Below are positions 11,174 through 15,954 of a stretch of 32,200 nucleotides of DNA, piece by piece. A program made the position numbers and the translations under genes. Location of the stretch: positions 1-32,200 of IMG/VR virus record IMGVR_UViG_3300046007_002016. One strand, 5' to 3'. This DNA comes from a virus. The notes under the pieces are model-generated. The model was not told the DNA's origin and made no database searches. It saw only the letters and a program-made list of their open reading frames with translations. Within the stretch, counting starts at the first letter, position 1, and each line of letters begins with the position of its first letter.

Positions 11174-11362
11174 ATGTACCAACAAGTTTTACAGCCAAAC
11201 GGCCAGTCAGCCACCTGCATAAAACGCATTGCTGACAACGCCTTCATCCCCTTTGACCCCGCCAACACATGCTACCAAGCATATTTAAAATGGGTCAGTG
11301 AAGGGAACTCTCCGTTGCCAGCAGACGAGCCGATCACTCAGAATGAGCAACCACCAGCTTAA
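11174..11362 (+). CDS. Small fibre-companion protein, C-terminus duplicated downstream
   Basis: 62 residues. MYQQVLQPNGQSATCIKRI, then DNAFIPFDPANTCYQAYLKW and SEGNSPLPAD form a small protein type that I recall following fibre genes in several phages, possibly an assembly helper. Ribosome binding site AAGGA just before ATG 11174. Its 3' end overlaps the homing endonuclease gene by 20 bases. The segment YLKWVSEGNSPLPAD (11282-11326) reappears as YLKWLAEGNTPLPAD at the end of that endonuclease, 12 of 15 residues identical. This suggests the insertion happened in or beside this gene. Confidence 0.72.
   Translation: MYQQVLQPNGQSATCIKRIADNAFIPFDPANTCYQAYLKWVSEGNSPLPADEPITQNEQPPA
11282..11326 (+). 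repeat. First copy of duplicated gene end
   Basis: A 45-base segment encoding YLKWVSEGNSPLPAD. Its partner is at 11964-12008, and I count 29 of 45 bases identical. The changes are mostly at third codon positions, so the duplication is old or came from a diverged relative. Confidence 0.75.
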
Positions 11363-12023
11363 TCGCTACAAAAAGTTTATTGATGCGTTGAGAAATCAGC
11401 GCATTGATGGCTATTTTGAAAAACACCACATCTTGCCAAGAAGCATGGGTGGTAGCGATGATGCGTCCAATATTATCTGTCTGACATTGCGACAACACTA
11501 CATTGCTCATTGGATGCTTTGGAAAGTGTACGGCGGCAAAATGGCGGTTGCTTTTGACTACATGAACGGCATCAAGAAGTATGGCTACCGCCTGACAGGT
11601 AGGACGATAAAGCTGCTTAGTGAAGATGTGTCAAAGCGTAGAAGTGAACGCACTGTTTCCGCTGAAACACGCGAAAAGCAACGCCAAGCAAAACTCGGTC
11701 GCAAACTAACACCCGAGCATATTGAGAAGGTTCGTCTTACGGTGCTTGGTCGTAAAATGGGTCCAGAGTTTGCCGCTAAAGTTTCTGAAGCAAAGCGGGG
11801 TCGCAGCAATGGTCGCCTTGGATGCTCAATGTCTGAGCAAACTAAGCAGCGTATTGGTGATGCCCAACGAGGTGAACTTAACCACATGACGGGCCGTAAA
11901 CACAGCTCAGAAACCAGAGAGAAAATGAGAATGGCACACATGAAACGAAACAAACCCGCCGAGTACCTGAAATGGCTGGCCGAGGGCAACACGCCACTGC
12001 CTGCGGACGCACAACCTGAGTAA
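11343..12023 (+). CDS. HNH homing endonuclease with NUMOD3 repeats and a captured C-terminus
   Basis: About 226 residues from ATG 11343; a GTG at 11298 is possible, and neither has a clear ribosome binding site. The HNH motif is plain near the N-terminus: KHHILPRSMGGSDDASNI then ICLTLRQHYIAHWML, giving the paired His, the Asn and the distal His. The middle and C-terminal part carries repeated NUMOD3-type DNA-binding motifs: SAETREKQRQAKLGRKLT, EHIEKVRLTVLGRKM and SSETREKMRMAHMK. Such proteins cut a target lacking the gene and spread by repair. The last 22 residues are not nuclease but a copy of the end of the upstream small protein. It is inserted between the adhesin and envelope blocks. Confidence 0.88.
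   Translation: MSNHQLNRYKKFIDALRNQRIDGYFEKHHILPRSMGGSDDASNIICLTLRQHYIAHWMLWKVYGGKMAVAFDYMNGIKKYGYRLTGRTIKLLSEDVSKRRSERTVSAETREKQRQAKLGRKLTPEHIEKVRLTVLGRKMGPEFAAKVSEAKRGRSNGRLGCSMSEQTKQRIGDAQRGELNHMTGRKHSSETREKMRMAHMKRNKPAEYLKWLAEGNTPLPADAQPE
11964..12008 (+). repeat. Second copy of duplicated gene end, inside the endonuclease gene
   Basis: It encodes YLKWLAEGNTPLPAD in frame with the endonuclease and is paired with 11282-11326. This is probably the displaced original 3' end of the small fibre-companion gene. Confidence 0.75.
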
Positions 12024-12732: not shown

Positions 12733-13182
12733 ATGAAGCGGTTATTTTTTGCTCTGCTGATCCCCGCTGCGGTGTTCGCGCAGGACACCACCATTAACTA
12801 CAAGGGCCAGCCGCCGCCAACAGCCATGGCTCCCAGCTTGTCTGCAATGGGCGCTGACATATGCGCCGTCCCTGTGTCTGGTGCGATCTCGTCAACCGTC
12901 ATCGGCATATCAGGCGGAACGGTCCTCAGCGACATCAACTGCGAGCGGATCAAGCTCGCCAAGACGCTGAACGACCTCGGCCTCAAAGTCACCGCCGTGG
13001 CTGTGCTGTGCGCTGACATCCGCGTTTGGGAAGCAATGATGGAGTCCGGCAGCCCCTGCCCTACGCTGGGCATGATTGGCGACGCTGCTCAGAATGAGTG
13101 GATTCGCCGCCACCCAGAACGGTTCAAGAAGCTCTATGGCAAAGTTCCTGCTCCAACTACTATTGCTGCTGGGGACAAGTGA
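12733..13182 (+). CDS. Sec-exported small protein, unknown function
   Basis: 149 residues. A textbook signal peptide (MKRLFFALLIPAAVFAQ, likely cut after AFA) sends it to the periplasm. The mature part has four Cys (in DICAV, INCER, LCADI and PCPTLG), probably two disulfides, and a Gly-rich stretch before a helix DINCERIKLAKTLNDLGL. The basic C-terminus contains NEWIRRHPERFKKLYGKV. I have seen similar small exported proteins near phage lysis genes, but no function is known to me. The gene overlaps the following cysteine-repeat gene by 47 bases, and its stop overlaps a Lys/Ala-rich frame (TGATG). Confidence 0.75.
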   Translation: MKRLFFALLIPAAVFAQDTTINYKGQPPPTAMAPSLSAMGADICAVPVSGAISSTVIGISGGTVLSDINCERIKLAKTLNDLGLKVTAVAVLCADIRVWEAMMESGSPCPTLGMIGDAAQNEWIRRHPERFKKLYGKVPAPTTIAAGDK

Positions 13183-14236
13183 TGTCTTGGCTCAAAGCTG
13201 CTTTTGCACGGATGCGAAAAATCCTGCGACTGGAAACTGCTACGCCAACGCAACCTGCTGGGCTTGCGCACCCGGAGCCTACAACACCAGCTGGCAACAA
13301 GCCTACTGCACAAACTACGTTCCTCCAGCCCCCACTTGCACCTACTCCGCAGCCACAGAGCAGCGACCCTGCCCTATCAACCACTCTGGAACGCAGACTT
13401 GGAAACGAGAAAATAACTGCATCGGAGGAACAGCCGTTGACAGCGGGTGGTACAAAGTCTCGGAAACCTGCGCCCCGCTCCCGCCAACCTGCCAAGCCAG
13501 CCGCGAAACGCGCCAAGAAGCCTGCGGCCAAAACCAAAGTGGCAGCAAAACGTATACCCGCCAAAGCACCTGCCCAGACCCGTACGGCCAGCCGGTCTGG
13601 GGGGCGTGGCAACTGACAAGGGACGCCTGCGTATGGAACCCACCAACTTGCCAGATAAGCATGCAGACGCAGACTCAGCCGTGTCAGGCCGGGTTCACGG
13701 GCAGCATCACCCAGTCAATGACGAGTACATGCCCAAATCCATATGGCAGTCCGGTGTGGTCAAACGCTTGGGCGACTACATCAAACACCTGCGTCAAGTC
13801 GATGAGCAATCCAACCAACGTACTGTCGCCCGTCAGCCCAATATCGCCAATCATGTCTGCCCCCGCCATGGTGAGCGCACCTGTGATTGTTCAGCCGGTT
13901 CCTGTGCAGACGATGACTGTGGAGTCGACACCAGAATCGCCGCCCCCGAGCCAGTCAGCAGCCAGCACTACACCTGCCCCATCAGCGGGCGTATCTGCCT
14001 CACCATCAGGTGCCGGGAGTGGTGCGAAAGCGGTGTCGATCGTTCAAAAACTTGAGCTAGTTGGCGCGTTACCCAAACAACCGACGATAATCGAGACAAT
14101 TTCACTCTCACAGGAGTTACCAGATGGCGTCCGACGACAACAAGAGCTATTCCTTGAACTTATCCAGCCAGATGATTCTTGGCTTGATCGTGACATTCCT
14201 GCCGATTATCGGCGGAGCGGCCTATACGGGAATTAA
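13136..14236 (+). CDS. Exported cysteine-rich repeat protein (thrombospondin-type-1-like modules)
   Basis: 366 residues from ATG 13136, chosen because a signal peptide begins there (MAKFLLQLLLLLG and cleavage near VLA-Q20). Three tandem modules follow, each with four Cys at nearly fixed spacing: Cys68-79-95-112, 119-130-146-165 and 172-183-199-219. Each holds a CP.PYG.P.W or equivalent Gly/Trp core, as in thrombospondin type 1 repeats. A Pro/Ser/Val/Thr-rich low-complexity linker (about 222-320) and a short charged C-terminus follow. The regular Cys spacing is strong evidence that this is the real frame; two other frames are also open. It overlaps the next gene by 113 bases. Export to the periplasm or outer surface is inferred. 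Confidence 0.78.
   Translation: MAKFLLQLLLLLGTSDVLAQSCFCTDAKNPATGNCYANATCWACAPGAYNTSWQQAYCTNYVPPAPTCTYSAATEQRPCPINHSGTQTWKRENNCIGGTAVDSGWYKVSETCAPLPPTCQASRETRQEACGQNQSGSKTYTRQSTCPDPYGQPVWGAWQLTRDACVWNPPTCQISMQTQTQPCQAGFTGSITQSMTSTCPNPYGSPVWSNAWATTSNTCVKSMSNPTNVLSPVSPISPIMSAPAMVSAPVIVQPVPVQTMTVESTPESPPPSQSAASTTPAPSAGVSASPSGAGSGAKAVSIVQKLELVGALPKQPTIIETISLSQELPDGVRRQQELFLELIQPDDSWLDRDIPADYRRSGLYGN
13182..13616 (+). CDS. Possible overlapping gene: Lys/Ala-rich basic protein
   Basis: 144 codons in a different frame, wholly inside the cysteine-repeat gene. It begins in a TGATG overlap with the stop of the 12733 gene and has GGGGACAAG just upstream, an arrangement used for real genes elsewhere here. 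The C-terminal third resembles a histone H1-like tail (KPAAKRAKKPAAKTKVAAK). Against it: the region is stop-poor in all three frames, and over 30 codons near 13440 I count G/C-ending codons 18/30 here versus 23/30 in the Cys frame. It may be an overprinted small gene or an artefact. Confidence 0.25.
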   Translation: MSWLKAAFARMRKILRLETATPTQPAGLAHPEPTTPAGNKPTAQTTFLQPPLAPTPQPQSSDPALSTTLERRLGNEKITASEEQPLTAGGTKSRKPAPRSRQPAKPAAKRAKKPAAKTKVAAKRIPAKAPAQTRTASRSGGRGN

Positions 14237-14627
14237 CTTCTGGGCCAAGATGAACAAGACCATCGAGGCGGTTGACAAATTCAAGCCCTACGATGACACT
14301 GAGTTTCGCGAGAAGATTCAGGCGTTTGAGATCGAGATGAAGGCTGTGAAGGAACGCCAGATCGCCACGGCTGAGCAGGCTGTTCGACTGGCGGAAAAGG
14401 CCTCTGACGCCATCACACTGGCAAAAGAGACCAGTGCAGTGACCAAGGGTATTTCTGCAGAGACAGGAGCGGCAAGTCGCGAGACCAAGGCTGCTGTCGA
14501 GAGCGTGAACCGCGAAGTCATCACAAAGCTGACCGCGCTCAAGCAAGACCTCGACAGCACAACCGCCAACCTTCGCTCGGAGATGAACGCACTGAAGCGG
14601 GCCACGACCAACAAGCTGGGGAACTGA
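14124..14627 (+). CDS. Single-span membrane protein with long periplasmic or cytoplasmic coiled coil
   Basis: 167 residues. ATG 14124 has AGGAG at 14112-14116. A hydrophobic segment at about 16-36 (MILGLIVTFLPIIGGAAYTG) is followed by a roughly 120-residue Ala/Glu/Lys/Thr helix with heptad periodicity, containing AEKASDAITLAKETSAV and ending in MNALKRATTNKLGN. This shape is reminiscent of spanin-like or tape-like membrane helpers, but a true Rz candidate lies downstream. It starts inside the end of the cysteine-repeat gene. I assign no function. It belongs to a run of envelope-targeted genes before the endolysin. Confidence 0.75.
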   Translation: MASDDNKSYSLNLSSQMILGLIVTFLPIIGGAAYTGINFWAKMNKTIEAVDKFKPYDDTEFREKIQAFEIEMKAVKERQIATAEQAVRLAEKASDAITLAKETSAVTKGISAETGAASRETKAAVESVNREVITKLTALKQDLDSTTANLRSEMNALKRATTNKLGN

Positions 14628-14628
14628 C

Positions 14629-14982
14629 ATGGAAGACCAACACTTCAAGGACTGGTGGCGAGAAAACTACACTGAATTTCCGTCGACGGAGTTCTTGGAG
14701 CAGTGCTTTTACGCTGGCTTCGACTGTGCTATGTTCTATGTATGGCGCATGGCCAAGATCATTTTCTTTGTGGCTGCGCTGTGCGCAGGAGTTTTCTTCC
14801 TGTCAGGCTGTGAGGAACGGTACCGGTATTTCTGCCAAAATCCTGACAACTTCCACAAAGAACAGTGCCAGAAACCCCGTTGCCAGTTTACGCAGCAGTG
14901 CCCTGAGTATCTGGTAGCCCCTATCTTGGAGAAGCAAATTGACCAAACTAAGCCTGCCGAATCACCAACACCTGTCCGCTGA
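14629..14982 (+). CDS. Lipoprotein, possibly with a longer cytoplasmic form from an upstream start
   Basis: 117 residues if read from ATG 14629, which has GGGGAA just upstream. An in-frame ATG at 14749 would give 77 residues beginning MAKIIFFVAALCAGVFFLSG then Cys, a typical lipoprotein signal with lipobox LSGC. After the Cys it has EERYRYFCQNPDNF and QKPRCQFTQQCPEYL, with four further Cys, a pattern I recall from small phage lipoproteins. The first 40 residues (EDQHFKDWWRENYTEFPSTE and on) look like a separate small soluble domain. Either one fused protein or two products from two starts is possible. The 3' end overlaps the next gene by 44 bases. Confidence 0.72.
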   Translation: MEDQHFKDWWRENYTEFPSTEFLEQCFYAGFDCAMFYVWRMAKIIFFVAALCAGVFFLSGCEERYRYFCQNPDNFHKEQCQKPRCQFTQQCPEYLVAPILEKQIDQTKPAESPTPVR

Positions 14983-15454
14983 GCAACTGGAAGTCCGCAT
15001 CTGGGGCTTCGTGGTCATCATGATCACGTTGATCCTGACTTTCATCGTCGTTGCATTGCTGTACTCAGTGACATTTGTGACCCAGCCGATCAAGTCAATG
15101 GCTCCCATTGATCAGGCCTATACCAAGATGCTCAACGACATCGTGTTGTTGATAGTAGGTGGTATTGGTGGCATCGTTGGCAAGCGGGCCGTTGGCTCTG
15201 CAGCCAACGCTATGTCTGGCGGCACACCGCCTTCCGCGCCTGCGGCTACGCCTACCCCACCGCCAGCTCCAACCCCGGCTCCCCAGCCTGCCCCTGCGCC
15301 TTCGGTGATGCCCAACTTCAACTGGATGGGCTACCAGAACCCAGAGCTTGATGAGTCATGGACTCCCGGCCCGCCACCAACTACACCCCCAGAGCACATG
15401 GAAGACGAGGCTGAGCGTGAAGTCTTGGCCGCTGCTCGCCAAGAGGTTAAGTAA
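14939..15454 (+). CDS. Two-span membrane protein, holin candidate (TTG start)
   Basis: 171 residues. No ATG fits, but TTG 14939 has GGAG at 14928-14931. The N-terminus from there (MTKLSLPNHQHLSAEQLEVR) resembles the beginning of relatives I recall. Two hydrophobic segments occur: about 24-48 (WGFVVIMITLILTFIVVALL and on) and about 67-82 (DIVLLIVGGIGGIVGK). The rest is a Pro/Ala-rich cytoplasmic tail (about 95-125) with a charged end. Two spans in front of Rz/Rz1 and the endolysin make a class II holin reasonable, but other phage membrane proteins share the shape. It ends in a TAATG overlap with Rz. Confidence 0.65.
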   Translation: MTKLSLPNHQHLSAEQLEVRIWGFVVIMITLILTFIVVALLYSVTFVTQPIKSMAPIDQAYTKMLNDIVLLIVGGIGGIVGKRAVGSAANAMSGGTPPSAPAATPTPPPAPTPAPQPAPAPSVMPNFNWMGYQNPELDESWTPGPPPTTPPEHMEDEAEREVLAAARQEVK

Positions 15455-15954
15455 TGTTCGGCGTACCGCTCCCGTGGGCGCTGTGCGGCGCTGCTGTCAT
15501 TGCAGTCGTCACGTACTTCACCGGCCACCATAAGGGCTGGGCTCAGCGTGATGCAGAGATGCAGGTGGAGATCGCCCGCAAGAACGAAGAGTCCCGCGCC
15601 AAAGAGCAGGAGATGGCCAAGGCTGTCACCGCCAAAGACGAAGAACTGAGAAAGGCAAACACCGATGTCGCCAAGAAACAAACTGACCTTAATCGCCTCA
15701 TTGCTGCTGGCAGGGTGCGCCTCCCCGCCTCCAGTTGTGTACAAGCCAGCCCAAGTGCCGCCCCTGCCACCGGAAATAGCCCAGAAGCGGGAGCCAAACC
15801 TGACGGACAGGCTGATCAAGCTGCTGACGCCGAGCGAGAAACCCTCCAGCTCATCGCCCAAATCGCCGCAGACGGAGACAAGGCCATCAACCAGCTCAAC
15901 GCCTGCATCGACGCCTACAACGAAGTAAGGAACACTCTCAATGGTCAACGCTGA
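15454..15954 (+). CDS. Rz: Inner-membrane spanin (Rz-like)
   Basis: 166 residues. An N-terminal membrane anchor (about 6-22, PWALCGAAVIAVVTYFT) is followed by a long charged helix (about 26-90) and a Pro/Ala-rich linker. The C-terminal helix ends in INQLNACIDAYNEVRNTLNG, typical of Rz-like proteins. With the outer-membrane partner it fuses the two membranes in the last step of lysis. The partner Rz1 lies entirely within it in another frame, as in lambda. It starts inside the stop of the holin candidate and overlaps the endolysin start by 14 bases. Confidence 0.85.
   Translation: MFGVPLPWALCGAAVIAVVTYFTGHHKGWAQRDAEMQVEIARKNEESRAKEQEMAKAVTAKDEELRKANTDVAKKQTDLNRLIAAGRVRLPASSCVQASPSAAPATGNSPEAGAKPDGQADQAADAERETLQLIAQIAADGDKAINQLNACIDAYNEVRNTLNGQR
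15665..15928 (+). CDS. Rz1: Outer-membrane spanin lipoprotein (Rz1-like), embedded in Rz
   Basis: 87 residues in the +1 frame within Rz. AGAAAGG precedes ATG 15665. The N-terminus MSPRNKLTLIASLLLAGCAS is a lipoprotein signal with lipobox LAGC. The mature part is rich in Pro (SPPPVVYKPAQVPPLPPEI) and then Ser/Thr/Pro-rich, the usual composition of Rz1. Fully nested Rz1 genes are known from lambda-type phages. Its presence implies a host with an outer membrane. Confidence 0.85.
   Translation: MSPRNKLTLIASLLLAGCASPPPVVYKPAQVPPLPPEIAQKREPNLTDRLIKLLTPSEKPSSSSPKSPQTETRPSTSSTPASTPTTK

Follow-up and report, generated by a model that had tools for sequence, protein, structure and literature searches.

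Gene X, which encodes a protein with cysteine modules, is genuine and its product in all likelihood Sec-exported. Its DNA appears to be read twice over nearly its whole length, with A, B, C and D as a tandem row of genes beneath it. X (13136–14236, + strand) is carried on a 32.2 kb virus contig with portal-, capsid-, tail- and ejection-like genes, as judged by inspection; this whole stretch of 32,200 nucleotides is referred to below as the window. We consider it probable, with rather less assurance, that X is an exported modular gene of bacterial origin on which two conserved proteins, B and C, have been overprinted in tandem, and that these two represent new families. What the original prediction had overlooked is that the two remaining forward frames of the X stretch are open as well, apparently through selection.

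X Encodes an Exported Protein With a Conserved Cysteine Module

The open reading frame of X begins with ATG and comprises 366 codons (366 aa), as had been predicted. The protein consists of a signal peptide (residues 1–19; 13136–13192, +), a Cys-rich N-domain with cysteines at residues 22, 24, 35, 41, 44 and 58, all before module 1, three four-cysteine (C4) modules and a disordered tail. The signal peptide, MAKFLLQLLLLLGTSDVLA, would be cleaved before Q at an AxA-like site according to inspection and hydropathy, and such N-termini were seen in the window and in homologues. Module 1 (Cys 68-79-95-112; 13337–13471, +), module 2 (Cys 119-130-146-165; 13490–13630, +) and module 3 (Cys 172-183-199-219; 13649–13792, +), which the AlphaFold2 model and residue shuffles support, have exactly the cysteine positions first proposed. 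A threefold 11/16/(15–22) spacing was never obtained in 200,000 residue shuffles of X, and a single copy arose in 326 of them. The modules are followed by a Pro/Ser/Ala/Thr-rich linker (13793–14110, +), which is predicted to be disordered and whose DNA also codes for the conserved part of C.

Searching IMG/VR with the first eight homologues as query gave at least 223 relatives of X, so that the earlier description of such phage proteins as unusual was too strong. Eighty of the 223 were fetched and, together with a search by neighboring genes, yielded 145 X sequences, of which 78 were non-redundant. Nearly all of these 78 have a comparable hydrophobic N-terminus, in agreement with the Sec-type signal peptide assigned to X. 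By the regular expression used, each relative has one to five modules; these align with four conserved Cys columns, and the 11/16 spacing is exact in 130 of 149 family modules. None of the losses that would have spoken against the original prediction was seen in relatives, which have an unbroken frame, a signal peptide and the same pattern of cysteines. Beyond the last module the sequence (T)NPTNxxSPVSP is strongly conserved; next comes a Pro/Ser/Thr/Ala-rich stretch, which varies, and then a C-terminal segment whose DNA is shared with gene D.

AlphaFold2, run on a 64-sequence alignment from which one public phage record (L009) was left out, predicted compact beta modules with pLDDT mostly 90–97, an N-domain mostly at 79–89 and a tail at about 37–70. 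No convincing match to X or its relatives was found in Pfam, PHROGs or NCBIfam, and none in PDB by sequence for X, its modules or C. In a Foldseek search of PDB no match had an E below 0.001, and those listed were unrelated beta proteins. The best VIA match, to staphylococcal SasG/Aap repeats, had a Z of 4.2, which is too low to use, and BFVD returned one protein, H6BJ76, with E = 6e-7 but a TM of 0.18.

The Modules Align With Bacterial C4 Repeats

The modules had been likened to thrombospondin type 1 (TSP1) repeats. They resemble TSP1 (PF00090, PF19030) in being small, Cys-rich, tandem extracellular modules with a conserved Trp, in their first spacing (C-x10-C) and in being extended and three-stranded, and just 1 of the 33 modules tried against Pfam gave a marginal TSP1 hit (PF19030, E = 0.061). 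However, TSP1 has six cysteines (three disulfides) and the modules of the window and of the family have four, X itself had no Pfam TSP1 hit above the curated cut-off, and the module profile found no match among PDB sequences at E ≤ 10. The fold matches listed by Foldseek and VIA include no TSP1 chain, which does not prove that the fold differs. That X is a true TSP1 repeat protein taken up by phages is highly improbable.

The nearest relatives of the modules are C4 repeats of secreted bacterial proteins from Gallionellales, Betaproteobacteria (metalloprotease-like) and Rhodoferax (L162–L166). These were found by a motif scan of genome contigs; tblastn of the same kind of contigs with the X alignment gave no cellular relative, and plasmids gave no match. 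The bacterial repeats stand in tandem in exported-looking proteins and share with X the consensus ETQTLxCPxGxxGSITQxRxxxC...W..G.W.TTSNTC, and in the alignment the phage modules have the spacing as well as the consensus of this bacterial extracellular module. A bacterial two-module query also recovered the X homologue of MW202481 by tblastn (E = 2e-5). The bacterial proteins differ from X in having other domains and in lacking comparable double coding in their frames. Given four cysteines, no significant TSP1 match and bacterial repeats that align, the description as a small disulfide-rich extracellular module stands and that as a TSP1 repeat fails. One bacterial metalloprotease-like protein (L166:869-3169) has four copies of the C4 module and may be the kind of protein from which the phages obtained theirs.

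The homologue in MW202481.1 (35869–36975; UOF77515.1), with 35% identity to X over 80%, is annotated as 'transport protein tonB', a name without support in our analysis and probably the result of automatic naming from the Pro-rich tail. No B is annotated there, though a 112-aa B frame is open.

Stop Codons Are Depleted in Both Other Forward Frames of X

When close relatives of X were read in the three forward frames, both other frames were found to be open too. We compared this with a null made by permuting synonymous codons within each X, so that neither the protein nor the codon usage changed. At p < 0.05, 91% of the 78 members exceeded this null in their longest +2 run and 37% in their longest +1 run. 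Across 64 members, 6 stops were seen in the +1 frame at codons 30–100 of X against 103.5 expected, and 23 in the +2 frame, between 30 codons before and 60 codons after the last-module Cys, against 248.9 expected. Twenty-one more divergent members gave 3 against 34.4 in the same B zone and 16 against 93.4 in the C zone, and a set of six members had no stops in either zone (8.4 expected in +1 and 25.8 in +2). No synonymous shuffle came near the observed counts; Poisson values for these counts are indicative only, as the members share ancestry. Plotted by position, +1 stops vanish at about codons 30–100 from the X start and +2 stops at about −30 to +70 codons around the last-module Cys. The edges of both zones are sharp, and elsewhere in X stops are about as frequent as expected or in excess.

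As controls, genes A and D of the same phages, outside the overlap, gave observed/expected stop ratios of 0.90–1.10. None of the other window genes tested had an unusual +2 run, and a scaffold-like ORF of the window had a borderline +1 run (p = 0.047). Five bacterial module proteins had 74 stops in the +2 frame against 131 expected over whole genes, and 9 against 15.8 in the modules only. In view of this mild shortage, codon-junction bias could contribute to the effect in X, but would not produce a 10-fold depletion. At the sequence level, double coding of the X DNA as B and C is well supported.

Proposed Tandem Arrangement of Four Genes Overlapped by X

X overlaps the end of gene A, all of B (+1 frame) and C (+2 frame), and the start of gene D. 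Gene A (12733–13182, +) is phrog_20531-like and has a signal peptide of its own; the X start lies within its 3′ end. Gene D (14124–14627, +) has, by inspection, a hydrophobic N-terminal stretch, likely transmembrane, and a likely coiled coil. It starts inside X, and its AGGAG (14112–14116) is encoded by the X residues QELPD. In the arrangement that we propose, A, B, C and D would follow one another in tandem with X laid across them, starting in A and ending in D. The TGATG shared by the A stop and the B start, with a Shine-Dalgarno site, would couple B to A, C would start a few codons from the B stop, with its own Shine-Dalgarno site in several clades, and the start signals of both would be written within X codons.

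The stop of B and the start of C lie within a few codons of each other in most members. In the clade of the window C starts at +6 codons relative to the B stop, with an AGGA-type site, and this spacing is kept in two- and three-module members alike, B being about 50 codons shorter in those with two. An A+T-rich clade has AAGGA and a C start at +1, and in another clade C starts at −3; the C start varies between clades and is uncertain in some. We infer that B and C would be translated. Neither is present in the libraries searched, since gene finders discard long overlaps.

Gene B

Candidate gene B (13182–13616, +) would encode a protein of 144 aa with a pI of 11.8, and was recognized by stop depletion, conservation of its start and Shine-Dalgarno site, and the controls. 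In the window its ATG overlaps the stop of gene A, and a Shine-Dalgarno-like GGGGA (13171–13175, +) lies within the X signal-peptide codons. The B ATG overlaps the stop of a preceding ORF (TGATG or TAATG), usually one of 150–190 codons, in about half or more of the 78 members, and some of the remaining members have the B ATG just 3′ of that stop. B starts often stand behind AAGGAG, GAGG or GGGGA-type sites. In the window by itself the B frame is weak (P = 0.185), and the case lies in the family. Amino-acid conservation of B shows a small N-terminal excess and is elsewhere at the background of shared ancestry, and its composition tracks genome G+C, which suggests either weak constraint on the B sequence or rapid evolution. 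The case for B as a gene is its open frame together with its putative start signals. Window B gave no significant match in Pfam or PHROGs. By inspection, many B relatives begin with an amphipathic stretch such as MRWLKAVIARLLG, and B may be a basic membrane-associated protein.

Gene C

Candidate gene C (13633–14055, +) would encode 140 aa with nine cysteines, including the motif HVCPRHGERTCDCSAGSCADD plus CPISGRICLTIRCREWCE; a Shine-Dalgarno-like AAGGGA (13618–13623, +) lies ahead of it within X module 2. The conserved motif, HxCxxxPxRTCNCxxxxCADD, takes the form H-x-C-x(7)-C-x-C-x(2-5)-C in the family, followed by A-D-D in many members, and a second four-Cys motif like CPITGQLCSSSVCREWC is present in many. 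The C Cys pattern was found in 49 of the 78 members, compared with 0.24 per shuffled set. As the motif lies over the low-complexity linker of X, X cannot dictate it. Within the linker the three codon positions diverge almost equally (0.28/0.31/0.42), against about 0.19/0.11/0.55 in normal neighbors, with 52% identity in C and 55% in X over the linker. In a BLOSUM test of the linker, the +2 frame exceeded the null by 0.64 and the +1 frame at the same place by 0.25. Searches with the C sequence itself found relatives always inside X, and the C family had no significant match in Pfam or PHROGs. AlphaFold2 gave C a moderate mean pLDDT of 65 with one good helix.

Members without the C motif include L007, L106, L107, L039 and L009, and in L009 and L039 a +2 stop falls right after the last module; such members may represent X before C arose, or after its loss. 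We infer that C may be a small metal-binding or disulfide protein, and it is a guess that its cysteines, if cytosolic, could hold metal. In one clade (L073, L041, L034) C ends in an acidic stretch, DGFSDNLDYTG or similar, followed by GWPCVVVGAICET; the acidic stretch resembles a calcium-binding loop.

If X were the sole gene, the open +1 and +2 frames would be by-products of its amino acids, repeats and codon bias, and the weakness of single-sequence tests for B in GC-rich members and the mild +2 depletion in bacterial module proteins would fit this. But a null with the same amino acids and codon usage still expects about 17-fold (+1) and 11-fold (+2) more stops, the depletion ends at the borders of B and C, neighboring genes are normal in the same phages, and the C motif in the linker cannot derive from X, all of which make a single gene very improbable. 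A −1 ribosomal frameshift near the last module would instead account for C without its own initiation: a −1 shift from X leads into the +2 frame, and slippage there would give a longer exported X with C as its Cys-rich tail, so that the C cysteines would reach an oxidising compartment. This is improbable as well, if slightly less so, as there is no conserved slippery heptamer, third positions are free at the junction, the depletion begins 30–60 codons upstream of the module end, and ATG and Shine-Dalgarno sites adjoin the B stop in several clades. We prefer separate initiation of B and C within X.

Gene Neighborhood and Possible Function of X

X was correctly placed in a lysis/envelope gene cluster, before Rz/Rz1. 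An Rz-like gene (15454–15954, +) and a nested Rz1-like lipoprotein gene (15665–15928, +) match PHROG spanins, and an endolysin-like ORF lies at 15941, near X. The signal peptide, the Cys modules and these neighbors argue for an envelope role in late infection, which we regard as somewhat favored. Fibre-like genes precede X and tail/ejection-like genes follow it, as might be expected for a virion or tail component. That reading is improbable, as a Sec signal peptide would send X out of the assembly compartment and its near neighbors are spanin-like and envelope genes. In a late envelope protein, the most probable site of action for the modules is the periplasm or the cell surface, and their likeliest activity would be the binding of a ligand there. 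A block of superinfection is doubtful, and this, surface change and assistance in lysis are all guesses.

Two further ORFs of this region were noted. That at 11298–12023 (+), between the fibre-like genes and the lysis region, has by inspection an HNH-like motif (EKHHILPRSMGG) and NUMOD-like repeats and looks like a homing endonuclease. Read from an inner ATG (14749–14982, +), the ORF at 14629–14982 would open like a lipoprotein (MAKIIFFVAALCAGVFFLSGC) and continue into a Cys-rich stretch; the upstream start may be misassigned, or two products may be made.

Comparison With Known Overlapping Genes

The best-known cases of overprinting are in small RNA and ssDNA viruses. If B and C are translated, X adds a case in a dsDNA phage, in which one family tolerates two superimposed proteins across dozens of lineages, with enough relatives for the trade-off to be measured directly, and B and C become two candidate envelope or lysis proteins without known relatives. 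If overprinting is true, the ribosome-binding sites for the two nested genes and for the gene after them are likewise contained in X codons. Residues conserved in X, for example QELPD toward its end, may in some cases be kept for the start signal of a neighbor and not for X, which is a warning for reading conservation here. The literature searched, with partial coverage, contained no report of the X overlap, of phage proteins like X, or of a tailed-phage gene largely occupied by two conserved genes nested one after the other.

Overprinting, in which a second protein is made from an alternative frame of one DNA, is well known in viruses (PMC8227390). In contrast to the best-known cases, the X locus belongs to a dsDNA tailed phage, involves two families not previously known and has about 1.1 kb double-coded. 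A parallel is Rz/Rz1, where a gene of the lysis region likewise contains, in a different frame, the gene of a secreted protein; Rz/Rz1 has one nested gene, whereas X would contain two in succession and is double-coded at both of its ends.
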